From positions 1 through 46,135 of the forward strand of contig JAHJDP010000092.1 in NCBI GenBank assembly GCA_018831195.1: DNA of 46,135 bases. The letters are read 5' to 3'. Of the stretch, positions 5,150 to 45,993 are shown piece by piece. The first letter of the stretch is position 1. Every line of letters starts with the position of its first letter. The translations under genes were made by a program, and so were the position numbers. Under the pieces are notes generated by a model. The model did not search any database. It had not been told where the DNA came from and worked only from the letters and a program-made list of their open reading frames with translations. Origin of the DNA: Candidatus Eisenbacteria bacterium. GTDB taxonomy: Bacteria > Eisenbacteria > RBG-16-71-46 > CAIMUX01 > JAHJDP01.

Positions 5150-8100
5150 ATGAGGAAGATATTAGTCGTTGTGGTTTGTCTCTGTCTTTTGGGGGCTGCT
5201 TCGAGTACGCAGGCTTTTACACCACGGGCCGATCGTTTCCTAAACACAAAACAGGTCGTTGCAAAGGAGATGGATGGCGATAAACCTTTGACCACGGCAA
5301 ATACGTTCAGCCGGGCGGATACTATCTGCTTCGGTGGCCATGATGGGAATGGCTATGCCGTCGAAGGCGGTATCTGGGATTTTTCTGATGGAACAATGCA
5401 AGGTTGGTATGGCATTGATATGACCCAGAATTCCGGCCAGTACTGGTGGGCTCGTTATAGGGCGATAGATTATGAATGCCCCGCTTCCGCCCCGATGACC
5501 AATGCCAGTTCAGGCCACCTCTGGTGCGGCGGGGAACAATCTGACGCCGATGCGGGCTGCTGGACCTGTGACGCCGGCCTTGATTGCGCATTGGGTTATC
5601 CAAACAGCCTTTGTCAAAGAGCAACAGCGCCACTGATCCCCTACACTACCGGCGATATTTCGATCAATTTTCAATATTACACCGATTCTGAAGGCCTGAC
5701 CTTTGATTACACGAAGGTTCAGATTCTGGCATACGATGGATCCATCCTGATAGAAGCAATGGATGTGGATGATCTCGGCGGAATCAATGGGTTGCCGGGC
5801 AGTCCTGTGACCTTCTCCAGTGAGATTTATGATTTCAATATCCCTGAAGGGACAGACGGCCTCAAGCTGCGTTTTGAATTCGTTTCGGATACCTTTTGGT
5901 CGGATGAGGACGGCCTCTACTGCTCTACCTATGGCGCCATCGGTCTTGATAATGTAACCCTCGCAAGTGATGCCGGATCGACAACCTATGACTGGGAAAG
6001 CGATAGTGAAGGTTTTGTTTACGAGCATTGTCCAGGGGTAGGAAACTGGATAGCGATCAATCCGATCGATAACTATCTCATCCTGGATCCATGCGCCTGT
6101 GAGCTATCAAATTATGTGCTCGCGTTCCATGATGACAACCTTACTCACGGCGATCCCGGTGCAGAAAACAGTCAGTGGAACATGGCGGTAAGTCCCATCA
6201 TTGATAGGAGCGCCTATCCTGCGCCTGACTATAATTCCATCTTTGCCAGATGGGATATCTATTCCTGGCTTCCGCTCGAAAATGGGGTTTTGTATCGTCC
6301 CGGCTGGTTCTATTATCCTTGGGAATGTACAGAAACGGGTTCTTTGGGCTGGTCTCCACGGTCCGGCGATGATGACTACCTGTATGTTGGGACTGATCCG
6401 ATCTGCTACGAATCCAATGATAATGCAACGGAAAATGAAGTCCCAGGCGGTGCAACTTATTATCGGTTCTGCATAGAGGTGAAAGCCTGCTGCACTTGCT
6501 TTGGAATCACAAATTGTACAGGTGCCAGCAACGAAACACCGCTCATTGATAACATCCAGGTCTGTGTCACCGGAATTCCCGATGCCCCCGTCGCGGACTA
6601 TGGGAATGGATGTTACTACCAAGATGGATTCGGTCAATCCATGTTTATTGATCCCACGGCGACTGGACGTTGTGACTCATGGGACGTGGGCGCGGGAACA
6701 GCGCCGCCCTTCACATTGAGTGATTCGCTGTCCATTTCGGGTCCGCCGGTATTGGGTACAACGCCCTCATGGGAAGCTAAACTCTGGTTTAAACTTCCCC
6801 GGGTGGGGCCCGCCATCAACCAAACGGCCTACAATGCCTGGAAAAGCCGGCTGCCCGGCGATCCCGAGTTGGGATTTGTGGCGGTTAGAATGGACTCGTG
6901 TCAGACCATTATGCCCTTCAGCAATAAGTTCTGCTCCTACTTCCATGAGAGTGAAGCCGGGTTCAACATGGCTTTTAATGACCTGACCGATGAGAATGAG
7001 ATTCTTCCCGACGATCTCTTCACACCGGGAACTTTAATTCAGTACTTCGTAACCACGAATTATATCGGCAATCCACAATTTGCCTTTGTTGAGGACACTA
7101 CAAATGGTTTCTTCCGCGAGATTGAAATCCTGCCGAGCATGCGTGTGGATCCTGTTGCAGAAGAAATTGTTTGGCCTTGTGTCCTCTATGTGGACGCTTA
7201 CAATCGTGGAGCGGAAAACTTCATTCAACCGGCGCTGGATTACTTTCTCCAGGAAGTTCCCGGTGTCGGTCCGAACAATGATCGCTACGACGAGGATGGC
7301 GCCAGCACCAATTATAATGGAAGTTCTCTCTACCGTACTGGAAATAATGGAGCCACACTGCCGCAGCTTCTGGCCTATTCCGGAATCATCGTGAACTCCG
7401 GTTTATTCAGTGGCGGCGCCTTGGAGGAAACTGATTTCATCGGTTTGGAGGACTGGCTCCTGACTTCAATCTGTGATCAATCTGAAGTCCGCCAGGGCTT
7501 GATCCTGAACGGCGATGAGATGGCCCTCATTATTCAAGAACACAGACCCTCATTCCTCTTCGGCGCCCTCGGGACGGGGCTTGATTGTTCACCCTACCGC
7601 GACGCCGGCTGCCCCAGTGGAACGCCCGAAGATACTTCATTCTGTATCCAGGTCATCGATGTCGATATGCCGGTCTTCCCATCCTCAACGGACTACTGGG
7701 CTTATGGCAATGGGTGTCCCAATATCTACACTTACTCGGTCCTCTTTCCCCAGGGAACGGGCCAGGGCAACCGGAGCTGGTTCGATTTTGACTTCAGCGG
7801 TCCAAAGGGAGTCGTTGAATTCGCTCAGATCGTCAATGAAGATCTTGGCTTGAACAATTACCGGACCAGTGTTGAGGGTTACAGCTATCACCACATTACA
7901 AGCTCATTTGCCGGCGGCACTTGTGTTCCCGACAGCGCCGGCATTGTTTCAGCGGTGGCGTCCGAGCTTGTTGGAACGCTCAACTGGCTGTTTGATGGTC
8001 CTCCTCCGGCATTCTGCACGGATCCCTGCGGGATTACCGATGATGTTCCCGATGTCGACGGTGTTGAAGTTAAAATAAACCGTCTCTACCAAAATCGTCC

Positions 8101-8350
8101 CAACCCATTCAATCCGCGCACCGTTATCTCCTTCGCTATCGCCCAGCGAAGCGACGTTGAGTTGGCCATCTATGATGTTTCCGGCCGACTCGTGCGCCAG
8201 CTGAAAAAAGGCGTTATGGATGCGGGGCTGCAGAATATTGTTTGGGATGGAACCGATGATACAGGCCGGAATGTCTCAAGTGGGATCTATTGGTCTCAGC
8301 TGACTATTGGAGAATATCGGTCGAACAAGAAGATGGTGCTTCTCAAATAG
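5150..8350 (+). CDS. Large secreted protein with C-terminal FlgD-like (type IX-style) sorting domain
   Basis: The protein has 1066 residues. The start at ATG 5150 is chosen because GGAGGCGG lies just upstream and a clean signal peptide follows (MRKILVVVVCLCLLGAASS, probable cleavage after TQA at ~22). The frame is open back to 5078, but that start lacks both. The body is Cys- and aromatic-rich with carbohydrate-binding/jelly-roll-like patches. A segment near residues 680-850 (VLYVDAYNRG, later LLAYSGIIVNSG and GLILNGDE) resembles a GATase-like fold. Residues 974-1066 are a FlgD-like Ig/T9SS type A-like module: QNRPNPFNPRTVISF, VELAIYDVSGRLVRQL, WDGTDDTGRNVSSGIY, and the terminal KMVLLK. Such modules mark exported, surface-retained proteins in FCB bacteria. 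Catalytic function is unknown. Confidence 0.8.
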   Translation: MRKILVVVVCLCLLGAASSTQAFTPRADRFLNTKQVVAKEMDGDKPLTTANTFSRADTICFGGHDGNGYAVEGGIWDFSDGTMQGWYGIDMTQNSGQYWWARYRAIDYECPASAPMTNASSGHLWCGGEQSDADAGCWTCDAGLDCALGYPNSLCQRATAPLIPYTTGDISINFQYYTDSEGLTFDYTKVQILAYDGSILIEAMDVDDLGGINGLPGSPVTFSSEIYDFNIPEGTDGLKLRFEFVSDTFWSDEDGLYCSTYGAIGLDNVTLASDAGSTTYDWESDSEGFVYEHCPGVGNWIAINPIDNYLILDPCACELSNYVLAFHDDNLTHGDPGAENSQWNMAVSPIIDRSAYPAPDYNSIFARWDIYSWLPLENGVLYRPGWFYYPWECTETGSLGWSPRSGDDDYLYVGTDPICYESNDNATENEVPGGATYYRFCIEVKACCTCFGITNCTGASNETPLIDNIQVCVTGIPDAPVADYGNGCYYQDGFGQSMFIDPTATGRCDSWDVGAGTAPPFTLSDSLSISGPPVLGTTPSWEAKLWFKLPRVGPAINQTAYNAWKSRLPGDPELGFVAVRMDSCQTIMPFSNKFCSYFHESEAGFNMAFNDLTDENEILPDDLFTPGTLIQYFVTTNYIGNPQFAFVEDTTNGFFREIEILPSMRVDPVAEEIVWPCVLYVDAYNRGAENFIQPALDYFLQEVPGVGPNNDRYDEDGASTNYNGSSLYRTGNNGATLPQLLAYSGIIVNSGLFSGGALEETDFIGLEDWLLTSICDQSEVRQGLILNGDEMALIIQEHRPSFLFGALGTGLDCSPYRDAGCPSGTPEDTSFCIQVIDVDMPVFPSSTDYWAYGNGCPNIYTYSVLFPQGTGQGNRSWFDFDFSGPKGVVEFAQIVNEDLGLNNYRTSVEGYSYHHITSSFAGGTCVPDSAGIVSAVASELVGTLNWLFDGPPPAFCTDPCGITDDVPDVDGVEVKINRLYQNRPNPFNPRTVISFAIAQRSDVELAIYDVSGRLVRQLKKGVMDAGLQNIVWDGTDDTGRNVSSGIYWSQLTIGEYRSNKKMVLLK

Positions 8351-9362: not shown

Positions 9363-9467
9363 GTCCGCGATACGGTTTTTGAAAAGACGGGAATCGTGCT
9401 GCGTCCCGAAATCCGCTTCATCGGCTTTGAAGAAGATGACATTGGCGACATTTTGTCGGTGGTTTAG
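9360..9467 (+). pseudogene. murB: Detached C-terminal segment of MurB beyond the in-frame amber codon
   Basis: TAG 9360-9362 is followed in the same frame by 34 sense codons ending at TAG 9465-9467. They encode the conserved last helix and strand of MurB, with the proton-donating Glu in LRPE. The restored protein would be 314 residues, normal for type II MurB. The extension ends on the convergent pheT stop (TAA at 9466-9464), the natural spacing for an intact gene. A single C-to-T change (CAG to TAG) would explain it. Confidence 0.8.
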
Positions 9468-11329
9468 CTCTTTCTCCATACATCCTGATTCACCGGGTTT
9501 TCTCCCATCAAGGCCAGCAGCGATCCTTCCATGACAATGACCGGATTTGTGAGACCCAATCGCTCGAGGATCTCAGGATGCACTTCACCGAAAATGAGAA
9601 CCTCGCTTTTCTCTCCTTGGGGATTGTTTCGAATGGCCCGCGCTCCGCGGCCCGCGAGGAATGGCGCTTCATCGTATGGTTCCAAATCCATGGTGCAATC
9701 GAATTCCAACGCGACTGACTGCGCAATGGCCTTCATTTCAGCAAAACCGGCGGAGGGATAAACAATAGCGCAGCCGATATGGCGTTCTTCGCGGGCGCCC
9801 GTTTCAGAGAACCGGTCCAACAAGGTGATATCACCAATCTCGAAGATGTTTTGTGGCAAGGGCCGATGCCGGTTTTGGTGAAGAATTTGAAGAAGACCCG
9901 GTATCAACTGTGTGCGCAACTGACTCTGATCACGACTGATGGGATTGTCGATACGCGCCGCATCCTTAGAAGGTTCCCGGCCGAGCATCAGGTCATTCGT
10001 TTCCGGATTGGTCAAGACTAATGCCATAACTTCAATCAATCCCAGACCCGTCAGGATTTCCCGGGCCTTCCCTGAATAGATTTCAACGGGCCGTTCAGAG
10101 GGTTTCGTGGTAACCGGTAGAAGTATCTTTGGAATTTTGTCATATCCATACGCGATGGCGAGATCCTCAAAGAGGTCCACCTCGTGGAGAATATCGTTCC
10201 GATAAGCGGGAATTTCCACAGCTATGGAATTTTCGCCTTCCGGCATCGCCCCATGTCGCATGCGCCTTAGGAGGTCGACCGCTTCATTTTGCGATAGATC
10301 AATACCCAGTACTTTCCGGGCCTCCCTCAATGAAATGATTCGGCTCTCCGATTTCAGGTTGGGCGTGATGCGTTCGTTTTTATCTGAATCCAGCACGCGG
10401 ACAGCCCGAATCCTCATCTCTGGAATCAATTCCTTTAGACTCGTAACAAGAATGTTCAGTGCCTTGCCGACCGCCCTATCATTATGACCGGTGACATCGA
10501 CAAAAAGTCTGGTTGAAGATTGCGTCACCCGCGTCTCCTCACTATTGATAATCGGCGGCATTGAGAGAACGCGGCCATCGGCATCATGGAGGATCGGATA
10601 ATGAGTAAAACCCTTCAGGAGATGCGTATACCCTACTCCCTTTGGATGCTCCTCCAGAATTCGATTCAGGCTCCAATCCTCTCCCTCTGTCGCACCTAAT
10701 GGTCTAAAAAAGAAGGAAGCAGGATCTTTCGCCGTATAGGTAAATGGAGGTTTAACACTATCCAAGTCATAAACGCCAATGCTGGCATGCCGTCGGTCCC
10801 GTCCCAAGGCCCAATGGAGATTCTCCTGAAGTTTCATCAGGATTTTAACGCGCTCCTCATCCAACGTCACATTTTCCAGGACGGCCACCGCGATCTTTGG
10901 GCGTAGAGAGGTCGGCCGGCTTACGATCCCGTCGACAGTGAGATCACAGCAGGGATCCTCGACTTTCAGCGTTCTAGGACCGGTTTCAATATTGAGGTAT
11001 CCGCGCAGGGCGCGGCCCAATCCGCCCGGGTCAAACAGATCAGGACGAACGGCCAGCAGATCCATCCTCAAGACCTCAAGATCAGGCAGAGGCTCCGATG
11101 CCCCCCTTTCACGCAATTCAAATCCGCACTCCGGACACTCGAGTGGAATTTCTTCTTGGGGTGATAACTCCAATATGAAGCGGCACTGGTTGCAGCGATG
11201 GCGCTGCATAACTTGCAGCCCCTCTACATCGCAACCCATAAGACCGAGGGTCTTCTCAAGTGACTCGGCCTCGATGGGCCTGCCAATGACTTCCTGTAAT
11301 TGTTCTACCGGGATTCCAACGACGGGCAT
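9464..11329 (-). CDS. pheT: Phenylalanyl-tRNA synthetase beta subunit, archaeal/eukaryal type, with a Cys4 insertion
   Basis: This subunit pairs with PheS to charge tRNA-Phe. From ATG 11329 it is 621 residues, starting MPVVGIPVEQLQEVIG, the usual opening of the archaeal/eukaryal PheT class; the long frame upstream only overlaps pheS. NRPDLL-like VRPDLFDPGGLGRALRGYL (~94-112), the B3/4 editing-like region, the B5 domain (SLREARKVLGI) and the catalytic-like C-terminal domain (IFEIGD, GARAIR) are visible. It lacks the bacterial-type N-terminal EMAP/OB domain and C-terminal anticodon-binding domain. An insertion near residues 44-75 carries CNQC (46-49) and CPEC (65-68), a zinc-ribbon pattern. It overlaps the 3' end of pheS by 25 bases. 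Confidence 0.88.
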   Translation of the reverse strand: MPVVGIPVEQLQEVIGRPIEAESLEKTLGLMGCDVEGLQVMQRHRCNQCRFILELSPQEEIPLECPECGFELRERGASEPLPDLEVLRMDLLAVRPDLFDPGGLGRALRGYLNIETGPRTLKVEDPCCDLTVDGIVSRPTSLRPKIAVAVLENVTLDEERVKILMKLQENLHWALGRDRRHASIGVYDLDSVKPPFTYTAKDPASFFFRPLGATEGEDWSLNRILEEHPKGVGYTHLLKGFTHYPILHDADGRVLSMPPIINSEETRVTQSSTRLFVDVTGHNDRAVGKALNILVTSLKELIPEMRIRAVRVLDSDKNERITPNLKSESRIISLREARKVLGIDLSQNEAVDLLRRMRHGAMPEGENSIAVEIPAYRNDILHEVDLFEDLAIAYGYDKIPKILLPVTTKPSERPVEIYSGKAREILTGLGLIEVMALVLTNPETNDLMLGREPSKDAARIDNPISRDQSQLRTQLIPGLLQILHQNRHRPLPQNIFEIGDITLLDRFSETGAREERHIGCAIVYPSAGFAEMKAIAQSVALEFDCTMDLEPYDEAPFLAGRGARAIRNNPQGEKSEVLIFGEVHPEILERLGLTNPVIVMEGSLLALMGENPVNQDVWRKS

Positions 11330-12867
11330 ATCGGCGCTTCCTTTAACCATTGAATATCGGGAAGGTAAAGATCCCGCATATGTGTCACTCCGTGGCGGAG
11401 CATGGCCAATCGTTCCAGACCCAGGCCCCAGGCCAGGACAGGGACGTTGCAGCCGAGAGGGCGCGTCACCTCCGGTCTGAAGACCCCCGCGCCGCCCATC
11501 TCGACCCACGTCTTTCTCGGTTCGTAGAAGATGAAGACCTCGACACTCGGTTCCGTATAAGGAAAGAATGCCGGCCGGAATTCATAATTTTTAAAACCCA
11601 TTCCTTCATAGAAGGCGCCAAGGGTGCCCAGAAGGGTGGAGAATGTTCCGGCGTCGTCGATGATGATGCCGTCAACCTGTGTAAAAACGGGGAGATGTTT
11701 GTACGTTATCGCCTCACGCCGGAAAACACGGCCAACACAGAAAACCCGTTGTGGCCCCTTCGGATTCTTGGCGAGGGCCCGAACGGTGGCCGCCGTTGTA
11801 TGTGTTCTCAAGACGGTCCCCTGGGCCAACTCCGGATTCCAGGGGATCTCCCATCCGCGCGATCCGGTCTCGCCCCCATCCTCATGAACACGGCGGACGC
11901 GCTCGACGAGGACACTATCCGCAGGAAGATCGGCGCGGGAAGGCTCCTTCATATAGAAGGTATCTTGCATTTCTCGGGCCGGATGATCCTGGGGTTGAAA
12001 AAGGGCATCGAAATCCCAAAAAGCCGATTCGACGAAGGGTGAGACGATTTCGGTGAACCCCATCCTCAGGAAAGCATTCCGGGTGCCTTGTATGACCGCC
12101 TGCAGCGGATGGATTTTACCGGAAACAACCGGTTTGACATCGAGGCGGACATCGTAGGGTTTCAGCTTGGCCTCTTTCCATTCACCACTGGCGAGGAGTT
12201 CGGGTGTTAGCTGCGACACCTCCAATTGAGGCTTTATTCCGACAAAGGCCGCCCGCCCCGCCTCCGACATCTTGGGGAAGCGCTGCTTTCGCGTCTTGAT
12301 GTCAAGGAGACGCCGCTTTTGACTCAGAGTCTGGATTTCCGCTTCCGATGGAATCGAAGGAGCGGACGCCAAAGCGGTCTCCGGCGCCCGTTGCTCCGGC
12401 TGTTGCGCCAGCCAGTTTAAAAACGCCTCTTCGGCCGTTTGACCCGCTAAATCCTTCCGGCCTTGTTCCGTTATGCGAAGGGAAGGACCCTCTTGCTCCG
12501 CCCAATCACGCTGCCGCAGGAAGCGCAATATACCGCCGACCGCCTTGGGCTCCATGCCTACCCTTCCGGCGATCTCTTGCATAGAGCATTGCCCATCCGA
12601 TTCCTGCAGGGCCCGAAGGATCCGGCGTTCCGGCAAACCATGTTCAACGGTTTCGATACCGGCTTCAGTTAAACAATAGATCCGTGTTTGAGTTTCTGTC
12701 GTCTCAACCCAGCCCCGCCGTTCCAGTAGAACGACCGCAGCGGCGACTTGGGATTGATCCGCACCGAGTTTCCGGGCCATGTCCTCGACATTCCCGGCAT
12801 CGCTTTCTTCAACCAGATATTGTAACACTTTGAACTCGGACTCGGGGATCCTGGTTTCGTTAGCCAT
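11305..12867 (-). CDS. pheS: Phenylalanyl-tRNA synthetase alpha subunit, archaeal/eukaryal type
   Basis: This is the catalytic class II aminoacyl-tRNA synthetase subunit. At 520 residues it is far longer than the usual bacterial PheS (~330-350) and matches the archaeal/eukaryal class. The first ~165 residues are winged-helix modules (LERRGWVE, FLRQRDWAE) in place of the bacterial N-terminal coiled coil. The core shows motif 2 (FRREAITYKHLPVF) and motif 3 (GLGLERLAMLRHGV), and ends YLPDIQWL. The start at ATG 12867 is preceded by AGAGGA; an in-frame ATG at 12888 lies inside rsmE. It overlaps pheT, a coupled operon. Known cases in bacteria (e.g. spirochaetes) are usually put down to ancient transfer. 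Confidence 0.9.
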   Translation of the reverse strand: MANETRIPESEFKVLQYLVEESDAGNVEDMARKLGADQSQVAAAVVLLERRGWVETTETQTRIYCLTEAGIETVEHGLPERRILRALQESDGQCSMQEIAGRVGMEPKAVGGILRFLRQRDWAEQEGPSLRITEQGRKDLAGQTAEEAFLNWLAQQPEQRAPETALASAPSIPSEAEIQTLSQKRRLLDIKTRKQRFPKMSEAGRAAFVGIKPQLEVSQLTPELLASGEWKEAKLKPYDVRLDVKPVVSGKIHPLQAVIQGTRNAFLRMGFTEIVSPFVESAFWDFDALFQPQDHPAREMQDTFYMKEPSRADLPADSVLVERVRRVHEDGGETGSRGWEIPWNPELAQGTVLRTHTTAATVRALAKNPKGPQRVFCVGRVFRREAITYKHLPVFTQVDGIIIDDAGTFSTLLGTLGAFYEGMGFKNYEFRPAFFPYTEPSVEVFIFYEPRKTWVEMGGAGVFRPEVTRPLGCNVPVLAWGLGLERLAMLRHGVTHMRDLYLPDIQWLKEAPICPSLESR

Positions 12868-12877
12868 CCGTTCCTCT

Positions 12878-13666
12878 TTATGTGGCAAGCAAACGATCCT
12901 GGAGAAGACTCAGAAGATTGACCACCGCTGTTTCGGATCGCAAGCGGTGCGGCCCAAGGGAAACAGCCCAACCGGGCACCCCTCGCAACTGCTCCTCCTC
13001 TTCCTCCTCCCATCCTCCTTCGGGACCAACCAGCGCGAGAAAAGTCCCATTCCCATCATGCCGCAACGTTTCGCCCGACGGAAGCCGCTCCCCGGAGGGG
13101 ACGGCCCAAACAATCCGCCGGTCGCCGCATCGGCTCAAGAGCGACTCAAGATCACTGGGAGGCTCCAGGCGGGGTCTCCAGGCTCGGCCGGATTGTTTCA
13201 TCGCAGAAATGATAACCCTCTCCCACCGCTCGAGCCGCTTGGGTAATCGCTCTTCGACGGGAATAACGGTCGTCCTTTGCGTTACGATGGGTTGAATTTT
13301 GCGCACGCCCAATTCCGTCGCCTTTTCAAGGATCCAATCGAGGCGGCTGGACCGGTGCAGCAGCGGCATCCCCAATGAAATGTCCCACGGAAACTCCCGG
13401 GATGAGGGGCGGCTATCCTCGATCTGGAGCTGCACCCGGCGTCCAAGGCTTTCACCGATAACAACAAGGAATTCATTTCCTTCGCCATCGATCCCGCGAA
13501 CCCGGTCCCCCTTCCTGAGGCGCCAGACCCTTAAGGCGTGATGTGACTCATCTTTTGAGAGGAGAGGGCCATCCGGTCCCTGAAGATCGCGCGGTGGGAC
13601 ATAGAGGAATCTCTCTTCTTCAACATTCCAAGCATTTGATGCATCTGTCGGGGGGCCGGAAGACAT
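12878..13666 (-). CDS. rsmE: 16S rRNA m3U1498 methyltransferase RsmE
   Basis: This SPOUT-class methyltransferase methylates U1498 of 16S rRNA in the assembled 30S subunit using SAM. The 262-residue protein has the PUA-like N-terminal domain (SHHALRVWRLRKGD) and the knotted C-terminal domain with LVGPEGGW followed by a Glu run, then SLGPHRLRSETAVVNLL, the family's SAM-binding motif. The residue before ETA is RS rather than the more common RT. It lies 6 bases after dnaJ and 10 bases before pheS. DnaJ-rsmE adjacency is common in bacteria, although prmA is missing between them here. Confidence 0.92.
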   Translation of the reverse strand: MSSGPPTDASNAWNVEEERFLYVPPRDLQGPDGPLLSKDESHHALRVWRLRKGDRVRGIDGEGNEFLVVIGESLGRRVQLQIEDSRPSSREFPWDISLGMPLLHRSSRLDWILEKATELGVRKIQPIVTQRTTVIPVEERLPKRLERWERVIISAMKQSGRAWRPRLEPPSDLESLLSRCGDRRIVWAVPSGERLPSGETLRHDGNGTFLALVGPEGGWEEEEEEQLRGVPGWAVSLGPHRLRSETAVVNLLSLLQDRLLAT

Positions 13667-32837: not shown

Positions 32838-33755
32838 TTACACGGCGCTTGTCTTCCAACGTCTGTGCATCCAGAACCATTGCTCGGGAAATCTACGGAT
32901 CACTCCCTCTAGATGTCTTATGTACAATCTTGTAATTCTGTCCACGTCCTCATCTTCGGAAAGATCGGGATCCGTTTCGATGGGAGGCTCTATCTCGAGA
33001 ACGAACCTCCCTCCCGGCCGCCGATAGCCATATCCAATAAGAATGCTGGCTCCGGTCCGGCGTGCGAAGAGAATGGGCCCGGTGGCAAACGATGCAGGTC
33101 TGCCCAAGAATTCGAAAAAGCGCCCATCATGCCCGGCATCCTGATCGAGTAAAAAAGCCACACATTCATTGGCCCTGAGGTGTTTGTAAATCAATCGAAC
33201 AGATGGGCCGACCGGAATGATGCCGACGCCGAGACGCCGCCGGTTCTTATTCAGGAATTCATCAACAAGCCGGTTTCTCTGCGATCGAACCAGGAAGTTG
33301 ATCGGATATCCCCGCAAAGCGAAATATCCGCCCAGATATTCCCAGTTACCGAAATGCGCCGACAGCAGAACTCCACCGCTCCCCCTCTCAAGGGCTACAT
33401 CAAAAGCCATCTCACCATGAGCTGTTTGACGCTTTAAGATATCCTCTTTTGAAAAACGGTTAAGAAGTCCAACCTCGATCATCGTCATGGCGAAATTTCT
33501 GTATGCCGAGCGTGCGACACGAAGAATCCAGGCTTGTTCCCTATCAGGAAAAGCACACCGCAGATTCTCTAATGTGACACCTCGCCTGATTCTGATAATC
33601 TCAAAGGCGATGTCACCCCAACGCCGGGCCCACCATAGCGCCACCGCTCTGGGCCCTATAGAAACAGCGCCGATAAAGAGCCGCAGGGCGGCGTACTGCA
33701 TACGGTGCGCAAACGTTATCTTCTGTGAGGAACCGCGCGGGAAAGCCCCTTTCAT
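32838..33755 (-). CDS. LpxL-like lysophospholipid/lipid A acyltransferase
   Basis: Members add a secondary acyl chain to lipid A precursors at the inner membrane. The 305-residue protein starts at ATG 33755, overlapping the dprA stop as ATGA. An N-terminal hydrophobic/basic segment (LRLFIGAVSIGPRAVALWWA) gives membrane association. The catalytic H-x4-E motif is HFGNWE (His134, Glu139). Later conserved patches are ECVAFLLDQDAGHDGRFFEF, ILFARRTGASI and EQWFWMHRRWK. It supports a Gram-negative envelope. Whether it is LpxL, LpxM or a phosphatidylinositol-mannoside-type acyltransferase cannot be told from the sequence alone. Confidence 0.88.
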   Translation of the reverse strand: MKGAFPRGSSQKITFAHRMQYAALRLFIGAVSIGPRAVALWWARRWGDIAFEIIRIRRGVTLENLRCAFPDREQAWILRVARSAYRNFAMTMIEVGLLNRFSKEDILKRQTAHGEMAFDVALERGSGGVLLSAHFGNWEYLGGYFALRGYPINFLVRSQRNRLVDEFLNKNRRRLGVGIIPVGPSVRLIYKHLRANECVAFLLDQDAGHDGRFFEFLGRPASFATGPILFARRTGASILIGYGYRRPGGRFVLEIEPPIETDPDLSEDEDVDRITRLYIRHLEGVIRRFPEQWFWMHRRWKTSAV

Positions 33756-34690
33756 GACCGGGTCTCCCAACTCCCGACCTCATCAGCACACTCAAATCCC
33801 TGCGGTCCCCTCCGTATGCGTCCATCGAGTTCCAACCGGCTTAGATGCCGACTCAGCTCAGATGGGGAAAGCTCAGGCATTGATAAATAGAGTCGCTCTA
33901 AATCGGCGGAACCTTTCTTTTTAATCTCCCCAAGAATCGCTTCCACCGCTGAGAGCCCATCAAGACGATTCGACGGGGCTATGGTTGAGGTGGCATCGTT
34001 CATTGGCTCGCGAATAAGGGCGTCGAGGCTTTCCACAATATCCCGGGCATCCGTCACCGGGCGCGCTCCATCGCGAATCAAACGATTGACGCCCTCCGAT
34101 CCGGAATCCCAGGGATTTCGGGGAATCGCCATGACCTCTTTGCCTTGCTCCAGACCCCATTGGGCCGTGATCAACGCGCCGCTGCGCAATTCCGCCTCGA
34201 CCACTAAAATAAGATCACTCATGCCAGCCAGTATCCTGTTGCGGCGTGGGAAATGATAGGCCAAGGGAGGCGTCCCATAGGGAAACTCACTGACAATCGC
34301 TCCCACCGCCGCAATATCACGCCTCAACTGATAATGCTCACGAGGATAATTGACATCGAGACCCGTCCCGATCACGGCGATCGTAACGCCCTTCGCCTTG
34401 AGCGCTCCCTCATGGGCGGCCCGGTCAATCCCCCGAGCGAGGCCGCTCAATATGACGATACCACGGAGAGCCAATTCATAGGCGATCTCCTCAGCTATCC
34501 CACGACCTCCAGCTGATGCGGCACGCGTTCCAACAATGGCGACAGAGGGGCGATGCCAATCGGTAAAGGGTCCTTGAATGTACAAGGGTTCGGGTGGGCG
34601 GTGGATATATCTCAATCGATTTGGATAATCCGGACTTCCTCGATCAAGCATCTTCCGAGGTATGCTGGTATTTAAATCCATGGGATCCAT
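33752..34690 (-). CDS. dprA: DNA-processing protein DprA
   Basis: DprA loads RecA on incoming single-stranded DNA during natural transformation. The 312-residue protein has the Rossmann core with AIVGTRAAS (51-59), SGLARGID (82-89), IGTGLDVNYPREH, FPRRNRILAG (147-156) and SGALITAQW. A C-terminal winged-helix domain occupies ~240-300. The N-terminal SAM/HhH-like domain of longer DprA proteins is missing or very short. The frame is open upstream of ATG 34690 for at least 15 codons without a good start, so the true N-terminus is uncertain. It overlaps the acyltransferase start as ATGA. Confidence 0.92.
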   Translation of the reverse strand: MDPMDLNTSIPRKMLDRGSPDYPNRLRYIHRPPEPLYIQGPFTDWHRPSVAIVGTRAASAGGRGIAEEIAYELALRGIVILSGLARGIDRAAHEGALKAKGVTIAVIGTGLDVNYPREHYQLRRDIAAVGAIVSEFPYGTPPLAYHFPRRNRILAGMSDLILVVEAELRSGALITAQWGLEQGKEVMAIPRNPWDSGSEGVNRLIRDGARPVTDARDIVESLDALIREPMNDATSTIAPSNRLDGLSAVEAILGEIKKKGSADLERLYLSMPELSPSELSRHLSRLELDGRIRRGPQGFECADEVGSWETRS

Positions 34691-38702: not shown

Positions 38703-39143
38703 TTATTTTTTTGACGATTCCGGCGGGTCTTCCGTCGGGTCTTCCGTCGGGTCTTCCGTCGGGTCTTCCGTCGGGCCTTCCGTCAGCCCATCCGGCGGCC
38801 TTTCTGCCGGCTCCTCCAGAAGGTCTTCTGCCGGCTCATCAATGGGATGAGGCGTCGCGGATCGGGTCGGGCTCACTTCGGGGGGGAATTCCGCCGTTGA
38901 AACGCCTTTCTCAGCTACCGCAGCTTTGTCTGGCGCGGCCGGGAGACTTTGAGATCGCGGGCGCAAGTCTGTTTGTTGTTCCTCCGTAATGTTGACCTCC
39001 CGCTGCACCTCATTCAAGGCTTTGCGGAAATCCCTCATCCCATTGCCGATAGTGCGAGCCACCTCGGGGAGCCGGCGCCCACCGAACAACAGGAGCGTGA
39101 CCAGGAAGATGACCAGCAGCTCTTGCATTCCGAGATTGAACAT
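38703..39143 (-). CDS. tatA: Twin-arginine translocase TatA/TatB subunit with repetitive tail
   Basis: TatA/B proteins form the pore or receptor for folded-protein export. The 146-residue protein has an N-terminal membrane helix (MQELLVIFLVTLLLFGGRRL), the FG hinge, and an amphipathic helix (PEVARTIGNGMRDFRKAL). The Glu within the helix start (QELL) fits TatB as well as TatA. The long acidic Pro-rich tail ends in a 4-residue repeat (T-E-D-P) encoded by 12-bp tandem repeats. No tatC is in the window. Start ATG 39143 follows GGGGGAT. Confidence 0.9.
   Translation of the reverse strand: MFNLGMQELLVIFLVTLLLFGGRRLPEVARTIGNGMRDFRKALNEVQREVNITEEQQTDLRPRSQSLPAAPDKAAVAEKGVSTAEFPPEVSPTRSATPHPIDEPAEDLLEEPAERPPDGLTEGPTEDPTEDPTEDPTEDPPESSKK
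38725..38784 (-). repeat. 12-bp tandem repeat in the tatA 3' end
   Basis: Four exact copies of GGGTCTTCCGTC (plus strand) and a fifth with one change occupy 60 bases. Because the unit is 12 bases, copy-number change keeps the frame and only alters the number of T-E-D-P units in the TatA tail. Confidence 0.9.
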
Positions 39144-39589: not shown

Positions 39590-40114
39590 ATGACAATCCC
39601 GATCCACCAAAGATGGCCGAAATTTTTAGTGGACAGGTCCAGGAGGGCTTTACGGTTTCTGAAGTCAACAGGAGGCCGGCAAGAGGGTTTCACCCTTGTT
39701 GAATTGATGGTCAGTCTCCTGATTCTTTCCATCAGTATCATGGGGGTTGCAAGGCTCTTTATCTTTTCGAACCAACACTCCCTCTCGGGAAACAAGGAAC
39801 TCGTGGCGGCCTCGCTGATCCAAGAGATCAGAGAGAAGATCCTCAGCGAAACTTTCGATGACATTCCCTCCATCTTTGACGGTGTTGATACAAATTACGA
39901 TGAAAATATACCCGTACCGTGCCAGGCCTGGGCGGCGCATTTGGCTGCACAATTAGGCCAAGATGGGCGCGGTCGGATTGAGATTCTTGAACCCGGCGAG
40001 GAAGCCGCAATTCTCGACAGAATGGTAGGTGTCGTCATTACCATCAGCTGGCCGGAAAGGGGTGAAACAAATGACTTGGTTATGCGTTTCGCCCTCAGCA
40101 AAGTCGGTCAATAA
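39590..40114 (+). CDS. Type IV pilin-like protein, PilV-like minor pseudopilin
   Basis: This 174-residue protein has the prepilin peptidase motif GFTLVELMVSLLIL: cleavage would be after Gly, with Phe+1 and Glu+5. The hydrophobic helix follows. The leader is long (~32 residues) and basic. The soluble domain is small, with EIREKILSETFDDIP and a C-terminal ITISWPERGE. This fits PilV/GspI-type minor pilins that prime pilus assembly. The start at ATG 39590 has AGGAG ten bases upstream. It is first in a plus-strand operon of four pilin-like genes. Confidence 0.85.
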   Translation: MTIPIHQRWPKFLVDRSRRALRFLKSTGGRQEGFTLVELMVSLLILSISIMGVARLFIFSNQHSLSGNKELVAASLIQEIREKILSETFDDIPSIFDGVDTNYDENIPVPCQAWAAHLAAQLGQDGRGRIEILEPGEEAAILDRMVGVVITISWPERGETNDLVMRFALSKVGQ

Positions 40115-40130
40115 GCCTAAGGAGAATCCT

Positions 40131-41744
40131 GTGCCCTCCTCGAAAAGGAATAATCGGTTTGAATCACAGCGGGGTTCCGCCCTGGTGTTGACACTTTTGA
40201 TCCTTGGATCACTGGCGCTGTTGGGTACCTCGTTGGTCCTTTCTGCAGTTGAAGACCGGACGGTAACCCGGTATAGCCGCCATAGCATGGAGGCCTTGGG
40301 CGTCGCAGAAACGGGGATCGCATACGGAAAGCACCATATTCAGGACCTCACAGCGCCGATGGAAGACGCAGACGAAGATGGCCGACCAGATTTTACTCTA
40401 TCCGACAGTCTTACCTGGGGAGGCGGAGCCTATTATCTTGTGGCTGAGGCCACTGATGTCAAGGGCTTGGGAATTTCAGCCTATCGATCAAACGGCTTCA
40501 CCCTTATCGCCGAGGGTGATTTTGCCGGGGCGATCCGCAGGGTAAAAACTCAAATGGTTCATGACTCGTTCCTGAAATATGCTCGTTTTGTCGCTGCAAC
40601 AGGAACAAGTTACTCCTGCGGTGCCATCCTCACGGGGGCCGTCCATGTCGGAGCCGATCTAGGGGTCTCCTGCGGTTGCTCATCGGGTGATGAAGTGACA
40701 TTCCTGGAAGAGGTCACCGCGGTGGGAGATATTCCAAATGCAGGCTGCGCCATCTTCATGCGCGGTTATATTACAGATGCCGATCCAATAGACTTGGACA
40801 ATTCGGTCGACTTCACCGAGATCGCACAAAGGGCGAAAGGCGTCGCTGCAGATAATGCCTGTGAAGGAGTCGGTATGGTTGGCATTTATATCAGCCTGCC
40901 TTCAACCGATCCCCTCGGATTAGGTTCAATGGCGAAAACACTCAATCTCAGCCTTTTTGATTTCTTTGACACAACGACACAGCCTCCCGACACCCTCGTT
41001 CGCTATAACGGCAACCTTGTAATGAATACGGTCACAGGCTCTCCATTAAAGAATTCCGACTTCAACGGAATCGTGTTCTTCCAAGGTGATGGAAGAGTCA
41101 AAGGCAGGGCGGACGGAATCACGAGCCATAATCTTACCATATTCGCCAGCGATGACATGTTCGTTATGAATAATCTCACGACTGGACACACCGGATTTGA
41201 TCCTTTCACAAGAGTGGCGAACGGCACCGGTAATCCCGTTAATCTCGGATTGGTTGCAAACGACTACATATATATAGACGATGACACTCCCAGAGTCTTG
41301 GACATAGATGCCGCCCTGATGGCCGTTCACAATAATTGGTGTATCCTAGACGACGAATTTGGAGGTTCCGGCAGCATCTCTTCCCACCCCTCCGCGGCCC
41401 CCGGCCCATTGGATCTCGACCGCGATGGAATATATGGTGAAGCCCCGGTAAATAATGATCCCAGGCCCGGTGAGGGTTGGAATGAGTTCACCATCACTTC
41501 AAATACATGGGTGTTGAATATTAATGGTCCAATCATTACCTATAACGGCGGCAATGCCTGGCCATGGAATGATTCGAGTGTTTTGGCCAGCGCCTCCGGT
41601 CCAACCCGCCGGTACAACTATGATCTCGATATCACCGAATTCCCGCCGCCCTGCTTCCCGGTACCTTTGAATCTTTGGAAGGATGTCAGCTGGACCGAAA
41701 TCTTTGAAACAGATTCTACCTTGACCTCATATATGCCAAATTAG
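40131..41744 (+). CDS. PilX-like minor pseudopilin with large extracellular domain
   Basis: This 537-residue protein starts at GTG 40131 with AAGGAG upstream; the longer open frame overlaps the previous gene. The N-terminal segment RGSALVLTLLILGSLALLG followed by SRHSMEALGVAETGIAYGKH matches PilX/type IV pilus assembly proteins: the cleavage Gly is present but the Phe+1/Glu+5 pattern is weak, and the AExG motif is clear. The rest is beta-rich and Gly/Asp/Asn-rich, possibly a beta-helix or adhesin-like fold. A repeated-Cys patch near SYSCGAILTG and GVSCGCSSGDE could form disulfides. Minor pilins of this size are far longer than typical PilX (~160-200). Confidence 0.75.
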   Translation: MPSSKRNNRFESQRGSALVLTLLILGSLALLGTSLVLSAVEDRTVTRYSRHSMEALGVAETGIAYGKHHIQDLTAPMEDADEDGRPDFTLSDSLTWGGGAYYLVAEATDVKGLGISAYRSNGFTLIAEGDFAGAIRRVKTQMVHDSFLKYARFVAATGTSYSCGAILTGAVHVGADLGVSCGCSSGDEVTFLEEVTAVGDIPNAGCAIFMRGYITDADPIDLDNSVDFTEIAQRAKGVAADNACEGVGMVGIYISLPSTDPLGLGSMAKTLNLSLFDFFDTTTQPPDTLVRYNGNLVMNTVTGSPLKNSDFNGIVFFQGDGRVKGRADGITSHNLTIFASDDMFVMNNLTTGHTGFDPFTRVANGTGNPVNLGLVANDYIYIDDDTPRVLDIDAALMAVHNNWCILDDEFGGSGSISSHPSAAPGPLDLDRDGIYGEAPVNNDPRPGEGWNEFTITSNTWVLNINGPIITYNGGNAWPWNDSSVLASASGPTRRYNYDLDITEFPPPCFPVPLNLWKDVSWTEIFETDSTLTSYMPN

Positions 41745-41753
41745 GAAGGAATC

Positions 41754-42251
41754 ATGTTTAAGATTCACAGAAAACTAACAGGGTTGTCCCGAGGCTTCAC
41801 GCTGGTGGAGACGATGGTGGTTCTGCTGATCATGGCCGTAGTTCTTGGCACGGCTTTGCCGAATTTCGTCGATCACCAGAGAAGAAACAAGGTAGAAACA
41901 AGCGCTGAAAATCTGGCCGCCCGATTAAAACTGGCGCGACAAAAGGCGATCGCCCGCCGCACCAAGTATCGCCTCACCTTGAATACTGTATCCGGCACCT
42001 ACCAATTGGATCGCCGTGAGACGGGTGGCGCCTGGGTCGCTGATCCGCCGGAAGTCTTCATACTTCCTGACGGCATACAGATGGAAGCTGAACTTGGAGC
42101 CGAGGCATCTAATTTAGATATAATTTTGGGGCCACAGGGTACTGTCGATTCCATTGATGTCCCCGCCACCATCCATTTCATTTCAGAAGATGACACCCTC
42201 ACCGTCTCTGTGGTCCGCACGGGCCGGATCCGGGTCATTCGAGGCTCGTGA
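41754..42251 (+). CDS. GspH/FimT-type pseudopilin
   Basis: This 165-residue protein has the cleavage motif RGFTLVETMVVLLIMAVVLG with a Glu+5 and the FimT/GspH-like N-terminal helix (ALPNFVDHQRRNKVETSAEN, then LAARLKLARQKAIARRTKYR). The C-terminal beta-domain has IILGPQGTVDS, the G-x-x-x-P-x-Gly pattern of the family. The length is normal. It overlaps or abuts the next gene (TGA at 42249-42251). Confidence 0.88.
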   Translation: MFKIHRKLTGLSRGFTLVETMVVLLIMAVVLGTALPNFVDHQRRNKVETSAENLAARLKLARQKAIARRTKYRLTLNTVSGTYQLDRRETGGAWVADPPEVFILPDGIQMEAELGAEASNLDIILGPQGTVDSIDVPATIHFISEDDTLTVSVVRTGRIRVIRGS

Positions 42252-42271
42252 GATTGGAAAGGATGAGATTC

Positions 42272-45121
42272 ATGCGAACCCCTTTGAAAGCCTCATCACG
42301 CGGGTTCACCGTTGTTGAACTCCTGGTGGCCGTTGTCATTCTAGCAATCGTCGCAACCGGTCTATACGGTGTCTTGTATAGAACCCGGGACTCCTACGAT
42401 CTTCAACGGGATATCGTTGAGATGCGGGATAATACCCGCATTGCGCTGCAAACCGTCTCGGATGATTTCCGCCATGTAAGCTATGGAAAAGATCCAACGC
42501 AACCATCGATTCATTACGCGGGACCGGATTCTGTTACCTTCATTGCGGACATAGACAACACCATAACCGGCGCCGAGCTGATCAGCTATTTTCTCGGATC
42601 CGATGGCGATCCCGACACGCCCAACCCGAACGATACCGTTTTGATGAAAACAATCGCTGATTCAGGCGGCGTCGCAATATACTCGGCCCCGCAGGCATAT
42701 GGGCTCGCAATGGATGGAATACAATTCCGATATTTTAACGGCCAGGGAGTCGAATTGGCCAATCCTGTTCCTTCACCGGAACAGATTGGTGAGATTGAGA
42801 TTCTGGTCAAGGGCATGACAAAAAGGCCGCAGGGTGAGCAATACCAGGAAATGACGCTATCGACCACGATTTACCCACGGAATCTCCCCCTCTCACCAGC
42901 GCGTTCAAGACCCAGTACACCCGCCTGTGGACCGTTTAATTATCCTGATTGTCAAAGCGTGACCCAGGTCTGGACGACACCCACCACGAACACAGATGGC
43001 ACAGAGCTCGCTTTCAACGACATCAGCCATTTCAATGTCTATGTCGGCACAGATCCTGACGATTTACCCTTGCATTCCCGGTTAGCGAGAACTTTTAACC
43101 AATGGACAGTATCAGGTCTTGATCCGTCCGAAAGCAATTATATTTCTGTCACATGTGTCAGCCGGTCTGGTGTTGAAAGCTACCCCTGTTTGGAACTGGC
43201 GGCGCTCGGCAGTGCTCTGGAACCACAAATCCCACAGAACGTCACTGTCACATTTCCGGTGGGACTTAATGGTGTCCGTCTGTTTTGGGATCAGGTCACT
43301 GAATTCCAAAGCGGCGGCCAAATCACAACTCCTGTCAAATATTTTGTTTACCGTGATGTTGTTGATAATTTTGAACCGGATATCGGCAATCTGCTTGCTT
43401 CCATCGAAGTCATTACTCAATACGACGACACAACAATGGTGGATTGCCAGCAATATTTCTTTAGAGTGAGCGCTGAAGGCTGTGGGAATGAAGGAGAGGC
43501 TTCTTCGACCAACTCCGCCAGTATCCCCTCTCCTCCGACCTGCCCCAGCTTCCTATCAGGGAACATTACTGAGACACCGGGGATGGTCCAACTCAATTGG
43601 GGCATTCCGACCACACGAATGGATGGGAGCCCTCTCTCGCCGAGTGAAATCGGAGGATACTACGTTGTCTACGATTCCATTCCGGGTGGATACACATTCA
43701 CGCAAGATGTTCCCGATGGTGAAACCAACAACACAGCCATTTCCGGTTTGGAGCTTTGCAAAGACTATTATTTCAACATCAGAGCCTATGATCTTTGCCC
43801 TGCTCTTGGCGATATCTGCATGTATAATGAGATCCATCTTCACACTGCGCAGCCGTGCGATCCAGTCATTCCTGAAACACCCGGGAATCTTTCCCTCATT
43901 CCTCTCGATGATCGCTTGAATCTCGCATGGGACGCCAATCATACTGATTGTGACCTTTATGGTTATCGAGTCTACTACGGCGTGACGCCGGGTGGACCCT
44001 ACAATGGGGTTGGCGCCACTGAAGGGGATTCTCCTATCGAGCTGACTTTTGAAGAAGTAACTGTTGCTGATCAGTGTATCTTTACAATTAATGGACTCTC
44101 GGAATGTCAAGGATACAATGTCGTCGTCACCGCAATTGACAAATGTGATCCTGGAAATGAAAGTCCACCCTCGGCGGAGGCCAGCGGAGAGACTGATTGT
44201 ACGCCATGCATGCTTGAAGCCGGCTGCACTACATGGCAGGCTTCAGCATCAAACTATACCAGGGTCAATTTGGAAATTTATACACTGCAGTCTTCCTCAG
44301 AAACACTGAGCGAAATTACACCCCAATGGACAATGGGCCATCTCATCCGGCAGATTTATACAGGCAGACCCCTGCAGAAGATCTGGGATCAGGACGGTTC
44401 CGCTGGCGAAAATGGAAATATCGGACCGCAACCTGCAGGCGTCGCTCTGGATGTCGACGATATCGACATTGAGGGATGGACGGACGCCGCCGACGGCGAG
44501 CCTTTAACACTCGTCTTTGATGGCGATATGCGCGGAGATGAACTCCAGCTTGAATTCCGATCACTCGGGAGCCTCTGTTCCTCGTCAAACACAATTAGTC
44601 AGGGATGCTTATTTGAAAATCTTGATGACGGGCAGGCAAATGGATGGTCTTTTAATTCCGGCAGCTGGAATGTCATTAATGGAGAACTGTATCAGGGTAA
44701 TAGCTCTGTTACGGCATTAGCGTATGACACCAATAGCTGGGTGAGTGATTTTGTTTATTCAACAAAACTCAAAGTCGTTTATAGTCAAACACCCTATTTA
44801 ATTTTCAGAATGCAAAACACAAGCAATTACTACCTTGTGGGCTTGAAAACGTATGACAATACCATCCGTATCGGACGGATTGTCAATGGCGGCTGGACCC
44901 AGCTGGCATCCACGAATGTCGGGCTCAATAACAATACTTGGTACAATGTGACGGTAAGGGTTGATGGATCTCAAATTGACGTTTATCTCGACTGCAACCA
45001 TGTACTGTCTGATAATGTTTCTTCAATGTGGCCTTCCGGCTACTTGGGGTTGAGAACTTTTCAGACCAGGGCCTATTTCGATGATCTACAGGCCACGGTC
45101 TTGAATGTCTCGGGGCCGTAA
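42272..45121 (+). CDS. Giant PilW-like pseudopilin fused to fibronectin-III-like modules and a lectin-like domain
   Basis: This 949-residue protein starts at ATG 42272 (AGGA eight bases upstream; GTG 42248 and ATG 42263 are other candidates). The prepilin motif RGFTVVELLVAVVILAIV gives cleavage after Gly and Glu+5. The first ~205 residues form a PilW-like domain (MRDNTRIALQTVSDDFRHV). Four FnIII-like modules follow (~210-640) with Trp/Tyr landmarks such as VQLNWGIPTTRMDGSPL, YYFNIRAYDLCP, LNLAWDANHTDC and YRVYYGVTPGG. A linker of ~120 residues leads to a C-terminal jelly-roll/LamG-like domain (~775-945) with NGWSFNSGSWNVINGELYQG and YLGLRTFQTRAYFDDLQA. Cys-pairs within the modules could form disulfides. 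It ends TAATG with the next gene. Confidence 0.8.
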   Translation: MRTPLKASSRGFTVVELLVAVVILAIVATGLYGVLYRTRDSYDLQRDIVEMRDNTRIALQTVSDDFRHVSYGKDPTQPSIHYAGPDSVTFIADIDNTITGAELISYFLGSDGDPDTPNPNDTVLMKTIADSGGVAIYSAPQAYGLAMDGIQFRYFNGQGVELANPVPSPEQIGEIEILVKGMTKRPQGEQYQEMTLSTTIYPRNLPLSPARSRPSTPACGPFNYPDCQSVTQVWTTPTTNTDGTELAFNDISHFNVYVGTDPDDLPLHSRLARTFNQWTVSGLDPSESNYISVTCVSRSGVESYPCLELAALGSALEPQIPQNVTVTFPVGLNGVRLFWDQVTEFQSGGQITTPVKYFVYRDVVDNFEPDIGNLLASIEVITQYDDTTMVDCQQYFFRVSAEGCGNEGEASSTNSASIPSPPTCPSFLSGNITETPGMVQLNWGIPTTRMDGSPLSPSEIGGYYVVYDSIPGGYTFTQDVPDGETNNTAISGLELCKDYYFNIRAYDLCPALGDICMYNEIHLHTAQPCDPVIPETPGNLSLIPLDDRLNLAWDANHTDCDLYGYRVYYGVTPGGPYNGVGATEGDSPIELTFEEVTVADQCIFTINGLSECQGYNVVVTAIDKCDPGNESPPSAEASGETDCTPCMLEAGCTTWQASASNYTRVNLEIYTLQSSSETLSEITPQWTMGHLIRQIYTGRPLQKIWDQDGSAGENGNIGPQPAGVALDVDDIDIEGWTDAADGEPLTLVFDGDMRGDELQLEFRSLGSLCSSSNTISQGCLFENLDDGQANGWSFNSGSWNVINGELYQGNSSVTALAYDTNSWVSDFVYSTKLKVVYSQTPYLIFRMQNTSNYYLVGLKTYDNTIRIGRIVNGGWTQLASTNVGLNNNTWYNVTVRVDGSQIDVYLDCNHVLSDNVSSMWPSGYLGLRTFQTRAYFDDLQATVLNVSGP

Positions 45122-45993
45122 TGTTTTCCCCTAAAATCTGGGGGTTGTTATTTGTTTGCGTGGCTTTTTATACCCAGGTCCCGGCAACCGGATCCGAAAT
45201 CACCTCCACTGAATTGATACTCATCGCCTCGGCGGAAAGCCGGGGCGAAATCGATCCTTGTGATTGTCCCGTGCAGCCCTTGGGCGGCCTGCCCCGTCGA
45301 GCTTCTCTTCTGCGAGAGGTCAGGGACTCGGGTCATCCCGCCGTTCTCATTGAATTAGGTGAGGTGTTTCCTCCGGCATATCAGATGAGTAATTCATTTA
45401 CCTGGGCGGCGGCCCTCGGAACGGCCTATGGTTTCATGGGATACAATCTCGTCGTGTTTGGCGATGAAGACCTGGCTCTCGGAAAGGCGGTCCTTGATCG
45501 CTTTCAAGCGGCCTTTGTCGCAGAGAATCCCTACGGCAAAGTGGCGGTTCCCCCCAAAGGTGGGGCGGGATACTCCTGGATTCGATTCGACGCCCCAACT
45601 CGGGATCAACAGGACCTATCCCTATCCTTCCTCGTTGTCTGGCCCCCAGTGAATCCATCGGAGATTGCTGTATTATTGGACAGATACCATGAACAAGCAG
45701 ATATGAAAATCGCTGTCATTCACGGAAATCTGGTTGCGGCAAAGGGCCTTTTGGCGGATTCAACATTCTTTGATCATATTGTTGTCGGGGATGGATCCAA
45801 GTTCGACGAAGTAAGGCGAATCAACCGAACAAGCGTCTCCGGCCCGGGTATCCGTGGCCGGACTTTATCCTTTGCACGCCTCATATATGGAAGTAAAAAC
45901 GATTGGATTGTTGCCGGTTATCGATTGGTGCCTGTCACTCCGGATTATATGGATGATGTTGTTATCTCCGAAGTTATTCATGAATTGCATTAG
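45121..45993 (+). CDS. Secreted metallophosphoesterase-like protein, probably truncated by a mobile element
   Basis: The 290-residue frame starts at ATG 45121 (TAATG overlap). A signal peptide is present (MFSPKIWGLLFVCVAFYTQ, cleavage near TGS). The mature start (LILIASAESRGEIDPCDCP, then QPLGGLPRRASLLREVR) matches the opening of 5'-nucleotidase/metallophosphatase-like proteins that accompany multiheme cytochromes: a Cys pair (47, 49) and GGLxRR. Later patches are ELGEVFPP and GYNLVVFGDEDLALG. The expected metal-binding His/Asp motifs are only partly visible. The stop TAG 45991-45993 lies on the mobile-element boundary at 45994, so the C-terminus may have been lost to insertion. Confidence 0.65.
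   Translation: MFSPKIWGLLFVCVAFYTQVPATGSEITSTELILIASAESRGEIDPCDCPVQPLGGLPRRASLLREVRDSGHPAVLIELGEVFPPAYQMSNSFTWAAALGTAYGFMGYNLVVFGDEDLALGKAVLDRFQAAFVAENPYGKVAVPPKGGAGYSWIRFDAPTRDQQDLSLSFLVVWPPVNPSEIAVLLDRYHEQADMKIAVIHGNLVAAKGLLADSTFFDHIVVGDGSKFDEVRRINRTSVSGPGIRGRTLSFARLIYGSKNDWIVAGYRLVPVTPDYMDDVVISEVIHELH

Follow-up and report, generated by a model that had tools for sequence, protein, structure and literature searches.

The window, by which we mean the whole stretch of DNA analysed here, is the entire contig C92 (46,135 bp) of an Eisenbacteria genome (G000; 5.24 Mb, 99% complete). Towards its end lie five tightly packed open reading frames (ORFs), all on the + strand and all intact in a check of the ORFs of the window, the last of which stops 142 bp before the contig end:

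39590-40114, + strand: PilV-like ORF, 174 aa, intact
40131-41744, + strand: PilX-like ORF, 537 aa from a GTG start, intact
41754-42251, + strand: FimT/GspH-like ORF, 165 aa, intact
42248-45121, + strand: PilW-like ORF, 957 aa from GTG and 949 aa from an internal ATG, intact
45121-45993, + strand: UshA-like ORF, 290 aa, intact

The FimT and PilW genes overlap by 4 bp and the PilW and UshA-like genes by 1 bp (TAATG), a pattern like that of a translationally coupled operon. An earlier reading from the sequence alone (hereafter the sequence-only reading) had given 537 aa for the PilX-like protein, which is correct when counted from the GTG, and 949 aa for the PilW-like protein, which holds for the internal ATG only. 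Elsewhere in the window, a TatA-like protein whose C-terminal tail is acidic and repeats DPTE units is found at 38703-38800 (- strand), a 1090-aa protein with a FlgD-Ig/Por secretion-type C-terminal sorting domain at 5078-8350, and PheRS genes of an unusual type at 9464-12888 (- strand). In the latter, PheS has N-terminal winged-helix/HTH matches and PheT carries B5 and CLM-type domains, both proteins recalling archaeal/eukaryotic PheRS.

Prepilin-type N-termini had been noticed in four consecutive genes of the operon, and this was borne out by Pfam, with N_methyl on three of the proteins and PilX_N on PilX. The class III signal peptide (G|FTLxE) and the alpha-1 helix of about 50 residues that characterise type IV pilins are present, the mature N-termini being FTLVE for PilV and FimT, FTVVE for PilW, and SALVL for PilX, which lacks Glu5. 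Tip subunits of type IV pili are without Glu5, and the occurrence of this residue in three of the proteins and its absence from PilX are as in a full H-I-J-K set whose tip subunit is of the K type. PilV scores above the Pfam cut-off for N_methyl (1.3e-7); its best equivalog-type match is TIGR02523 PilV (8.5e-7, under the cut-off of that model) and its position is unchanged in the related loci of the order and of a sister clade, so that 39590-40114 is assigned by homology to the PilV/PilI type. FimT matches N_methyl (2.4e-6), GspH (2.7e-5) and, under the cut-off of the model, TIGR01708 (2.6e-14), from which 41754-42251 is classed as a FimT/FimU/PilH-type minor pilin of the GspH family. With all four families side by side and the K-type member lacking Glu5, as is usual for the core minor pilins of type IVa pili (T4aP), the four genes are assigned as a complete core set, FimT being H, PilV I, PilW J and PilX K.

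The description of these proteins as pseudopilins had to be corrected to T4aP core minor pilins in view of their genomic context in relatives. In four loci of the sister clade (L053, L078, L080 and L081) the order is pilS-pilR-pilV-pilX-fimT-pilW-pilM-N-O-P-Q, and in G002 the cassette faces pilO-P-Q at a distance of about 3 kb. The order pilV-pilX-fimT-pilW is thus kept in related genomes and, in the sister clade, its place between pilSR and pilMNOPQ ties it to type IVa pili; on gene order, this synteny is taken as the strongest evidence that the four genes encode T4aP minor pilins. It had also been stated that PilA, the ATPase and PilQ are lacking and that the set must use machinery encoded elsewhere. 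The first statement is true of the contig, which ends 142 bp past the operon, and fails for the genome, where contig C61 carries pilB-pilT-pilC-pilS-pilR-pilA-(ABC transporter)-pilD-pilM-N-O-P-Q, including the pilA, pilB and pilD that had been proposed for checking; a genome devoid of the machinery can therefore be dismissed, the window being a whole contig. The second statement likewise applies to the window contig and fails for the sister genomes, in which the cassette lies inside the T4aP locus. Between them, the four sister loci and the C61 set provide pilB, pilC, pilD, pilM-Q and a major pilin, that is, a T4aP machine as known from its genes. No minor-pilin genes were recognised among the pil genes of C61, and only one PilD (prepilin peptidase) was found in the genome. 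Two further type IV filament systems occur on contigs C97 and C23, the former with its own pilins including a 442-aa PilX_N-like protein, and the assignment of the cassette to C61 consequently rests on synteny in relatives; it is plausible that C61 adjoins C92, as the pil genes adjoin in G002. A scan of the genome contigs with PilW as a single protein returned no match, and 12 loci were found with a PilX profile instead. Directly upstream of pilB in the window genome (L025:237-620) is a gene for a ComEA-like helix-hairpin-helix protein, suggesting a link to DNA uptake.

The gene at 40131-41744 encodes a PilX/PilK-type minor pilin with a large beta-rich domain, its PilX_N match (1.1e-5) being barely over the Pfam cut-off. 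Thirteen homologues share 45-63% identity with an invariant C-terminal PPPCFPVPxNL motif. An AlphaFold model (pLDDT 75.8) comprises a single long helix (alpha-1, residues 14-71), pilin strands and the large beta-rich domain, followed at the C-terminus by a conserved strand bearing this motif. The only significant matches of PilX among solved structures were the three chains of ComZ 6qvi (Foldseek E 7.7e-7 to 1e-5, the next match having E 0.6), with TM-scores that are low (0.20-0.27) despite these E-values; in sequence-profile searches ComZ ranked first with a non-significant E of 0.38. The likeness, as judged from the model, is at the level of the fold only. Two lysines have been implicated in DNA binding by ComZ. 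This pilin carries a large beta-solenoid as an insertion ahead of its last strand, has been argued to occupy the tip and binds DNA (PMC6561018). PilX departs from T2SS GspK, which is recognised by an alpha-helical insert and a gsp context, in that its domain is beta-rich and matches ComZ and that the context in sister loci is pilSR/pilMNOPQ. In G006 the large PilX is tandemly duplicated (L047:12955-16250), the copies being 43% and 59% identical to that of the window, and several f7 genomes have two PilX-like genes after PilW.

The gene at 42248-45121 encodes a modular PilW/PilJ-type minor pilin, with Pfam matches to N_methyl (2.6e-7), fn3 (4.7e-12) and 3keto-disac_hyd/LamG-like (1e-6). Its 957 aa are made up of a pilin module (~1-215), four fibronectin type III (FnIII) domains (~230-650), a beta-domain (~673-782) and a CBM66-like lectin domain (~790-951). 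The AlphaFold model (pLDDT 72.5) has a helix-compatible pilin N-domain ahead of the FnIII part, with a continuous alpha-1 (22-74) and a pilin beta-head (88-208), followed by a chain of beta-domains, the inter-domain geometry of which is unreliable (pTM 0.33, 10 sequences). The four FnIII-like modules proposed earlier are supported by AlphaFold and by Foldseek, the tandem matches including LAR FnIII 1-4 and fibronectin FnIII 7-10, and one only passes Pfam in the window protein. The LamG/jelly-roll domain proposed alongside them does appear as a lectin-like domain, for which CBM66-like is the better description: by sequence similarity the head falls with CBM66, matching that of the B. subtilis levanase (4azz) with an E of 4.9e-20 using the family profile and of 5.2e-7 as a single domain. 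Concanavalin-like domains related to CBM66 are also found in enzymes, and FnIII and CBM66 domains permit no certain statement on the ligand; the arm of PilW is thus described, from sequence similarity, as carrying a predicted carbohydrate-binding head that may bind glycans.

PilW orthologues of the FnIII-CBM66 type occur across the order and the sister clade (34-50% identity), full-length homologues reaching 44-50% in further families of that order and, in G145, 36%. Such conservation across Eisenbacteria (34-50%) argues against the FnIII-lectin part being a fusion error, a concern raised with the initial proposal: in all complete orthologues seen the FnIII part is fused to the pilin, and it is never a separate gene among the relatives examined. 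An assembly or annotation fusion of separate genes was therefore rejected, the fused protein recurring with a shared pilin boundary (PRNLP, around residue 215). PilW proteins of the order, the sister clade and families f5, f7 and f9 have proline as their last residue, in most cases preceded by a hydrophobic one (..LP, ..IP, ..VP), though the heads differ. The window PilW ends in ..GP (45110-45121), the proline ends include those of L047-L065, L080 and L081, and f10 proteins end mostly in ..VVFIR. The terminal proline is possibly a C-terminal assembly or sorting feature.

The fifth gene (45121-45993) is assigned from its sequence matches to a secreted UshA-like (seleno)protein family (NCBIfam NF041198, 9.5e-16, and NF049981, 3.3e-10, both under cut-off) and appears to be a conserved companion of pilW. 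Homologues lie directly after pilW in G002, G004 and G005 with PCxCP and GGLxRR invariant; in the sister clade, the interval from pilW to pilM yielded no UshA-like match. The window protein has PCDCP where the (seleno)protein family has PCGU, with cysteines instead. The label phosphoesterase-like given to it previously is appropriate at most at the level of the fold; phosphoesterase activity found no support beyond family resemblance, the aligned homologues having an invariant Cys-x-Cys and lacking a DxH motif at that place.

In diderm T4aP, the roles of tip adhesin and priming partner are ascribed to PilY1. It had been proposed that the cassette does without a separate PilY1, which holds genome-wide: no PilY1 (PF05567) was found in the window genome or in 10 genomes of the same order. 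Absence from the own genome was deemed insufficient by itself since no control genome matched, and the search was redone on 146, 47 (class) and 385 (overall) genomes, the model matching 24, 6 and 56 of them, respectively. Nearly every PilW in the 47 class genomes is a modular giant whose stalk and head vary by clade. These include FnIII-CBM66 proteins in the order of the window and the sister clade, a TG-rich linker with an FG-GAP propeller in families f7 and f9, an SdrD_B stalk with FG-GAP in f10 and some f7, and Invasin/Big_1 (Invasin-Ig) with FG-GAP in f5. Thirty-eight complete giant PilW loci of the class (712-1376 aa) have a large PilX (390-549 aa wherever separately measurable) and no PilY1 nearby, and at six loci a short PilW (182-186 aa) is accompanied by a PilX of 141 aa, with PilY1 adjacent. 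Every complete PilW of the class but one fits one of these two arrangements; the exception, on G016 C8 (L094/L115), combines a PilW of 252 aa with a PilX of 418 aa and no PilY1, and looks divergent. In this second cassette of G016 the pilin module of PilW ends alone and is without Glu5, a normal giant PilW being present on C10. In G039 (L086:2840-6967) PilW and PilX apparently form one frame of 1376 aa, an apparent J-K fusion.

The six short cassettes with PilY1 form a single clade in the tree (support 100/100), and the association between size and PilY1 within the class thus represents one evolutionary change; counting these cases as many independent events was ruled out on the same ground. 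Outside the class, PilW was short in all 11 loci (10 genomes) where it lies beside PilY1, and none of 27 giant PilWs in 25 genomes had an adjacent PilY1. The genome-level association there is modest (p = 0.048) and is based on open-frame lengths, not verified starts. G032, G034 and G286 have a giant PilW plus PilY1 at another locus.

Together, these data suggest that the four pilins probably form the core tip (priming) complex of a type IVa pilus, with PilW and PilX taking over the tip-adhesin role of PilY1. PilX, lacking Glu5, would cap the filament with its ComZ-like beta-solenoid, and PilW would sit beside it and project an arm of four FnIII domains ending in the CBM66-like module. Following processing by the single PilD, the tip complex would be assembled first by PilB, PilC and PilMNOP, would leave through PilQ and would move outward with the growing pilus. 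The arm may then bind a glycan, such as an exopolysaccharide (own or foreign) or a polymer resembling fructan, and retraction by PilT would pull. PilW and PilX together would assume the tip-adhesin role of PilY1 and possibly its priming role also. A broader proposal is put forward more tentatively, namely that priming and arming are PilY1-independent in such diderms, with J and K both being large receptors (a glycan arm and a ComZ-like solenoid) that jointly replace PilY1 and with heads exchanged between lineages on a common pilin base; if true, glycan and DNA would have separate receptors on a single pilus tip.

The reading of PilW and PilX as tip adhesins has a serious, though partial, competitor in a role of PilX in DNA uptake. 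The sole significant structural match of PilX is ComZ, the proposed tip DNA receptor of a competence pilus, the ComEA-like gene lies just upstream of pilB, ComEC is encoded in the genome and DprA in the window (33752-34690). That the tip complex serves mainly in DNA uptake, the PilW arm being an auxiliary contact with surfaces or biofilm, is nonetheless considered unlikely, as ComEC and DprA, being near-universal, have no diagnostic value, the similarity between PilX and ComZ is confined to the fold (sequence E 0.38), and an arm of about 740 aa with a carbohydrate-binding head would be needless on a DNA-only tip. A T2SS-like filament whose enlarged pilins recognise or export a substrate, for example the UshA-like neighbour, instead of forming an adhesive pilus exposed at the surface, would agree with the GspH models scoring best on FimT, the translational coupling of the UshA-like gene to pilW and the other secretin-bearing systems on C97 and C23; it is improbable given the cassettes within pilSR...pilMNOPQ loci in sister genomes, the minor pilins owned by the C97 system (including the 442-aa PilX_N-like protein) and the lack of an UshA-like match in the pilW-pilM interval of the sister clade. 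A place in the filament body is conceivable for modular pilins whose linkers are flexible (PMC8179133), and heads vary between clades, but a shaft or spacer position for modules that are a minor decoration without conserved function, the PilY1 role being simply absent, has very little probability because J and K subunits initiate pili in the T4aP studied (PMC7541494, PMC10191384) and nearly all cassettes in the phylum retain the arms along with a large PilX.

A PilW-PilX tip would have several implications. Eisenbacteria are known mainly from metagenomes, so that the cassette offers a first idea of their surface attachment or movement; a literature search on Eisenbacteria together with type IV pili yielded no publication dealing with this topic. 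The enlarged J and K pilins provide a concrete, testable answer to what replaces PilY1 where it is missing, and the phylum offers a natural series in which a homologous pilin base bears different stalks and heads, with G032 and G034 holding both solutions. The cassette would also link a ComZ-like tip pilin to T4aP well beyond Thermus.

Modular pilins are already an established kind, of which over 1,200 proteins with 264 architectures are on record, FnIII and LamG-like modules being among the commonest (PMC8179133); in the 2021 InterPro survey, the PF13385 lectin and IPR003961 (fibronectin type III) belonged to the 15 modules most often added (PMC8179133). What appears new, in the literature searched, is the enlargement of both J and K within the complete T4aP set of a diderm, the ComZ-like K, the varied heads across a phylum and the anticorrelation with PilY1. 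The closest counterpart of the set is FimU-PilV-PilW-PilX with PilY1 of Myxococcus xanthus and Pseudomonas, which comprises the same four families with a K subunit without Glu5 in a T4aP context (PMC7541494). The priming complex of M. xanthus, which consists of the four minor pilins plus PilY1, becomes the pilus tip, and PilX is without Glu5 there too (PMC7541494). Unlike these systems, the window genome is without PilY1; relative to the short forms in PilY1-bearing Eisenbacteria, its PilW is about 5 times and its PilX about 3.7 times as long. As modelled, PilX resembles ComZ of Thermus thermophilus (6qvi) in a large beta-rich domain that follows the pilin strands and precedes the last C-terminal strand, and a tip position is proposed for both, whereas PilX sits in a PilX_N-type T4aP minor pilin operon and resembles ComZ weakly in sequence. 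The CBM66 of the Bacillus subtilis levanase (4azz) is attached to an enzyme; the CBM66-like head of PilW is borne on a pilin via an FnIII stalk. In Streptococcus sanguinis, PilB (vWA) and PilC (lectin) are characterised modular pilins (PMC8179133, PMC9934059), with which PilW and PilX share an extra, putatively functional module, often a ligand-binding one in such proteins, grafted on a type IV pilin, and a proposed tip position. The Eisenbacteria system differs from S. sanguinis in belonging to a diderm with the full T4aP machinery, in having all of H-I-J-K with both J and K enlarged, in the four FnIII domains and CBM66 carried by J, and in a base shared across the phylum whose varied heads are anticorrelated with PilY1.
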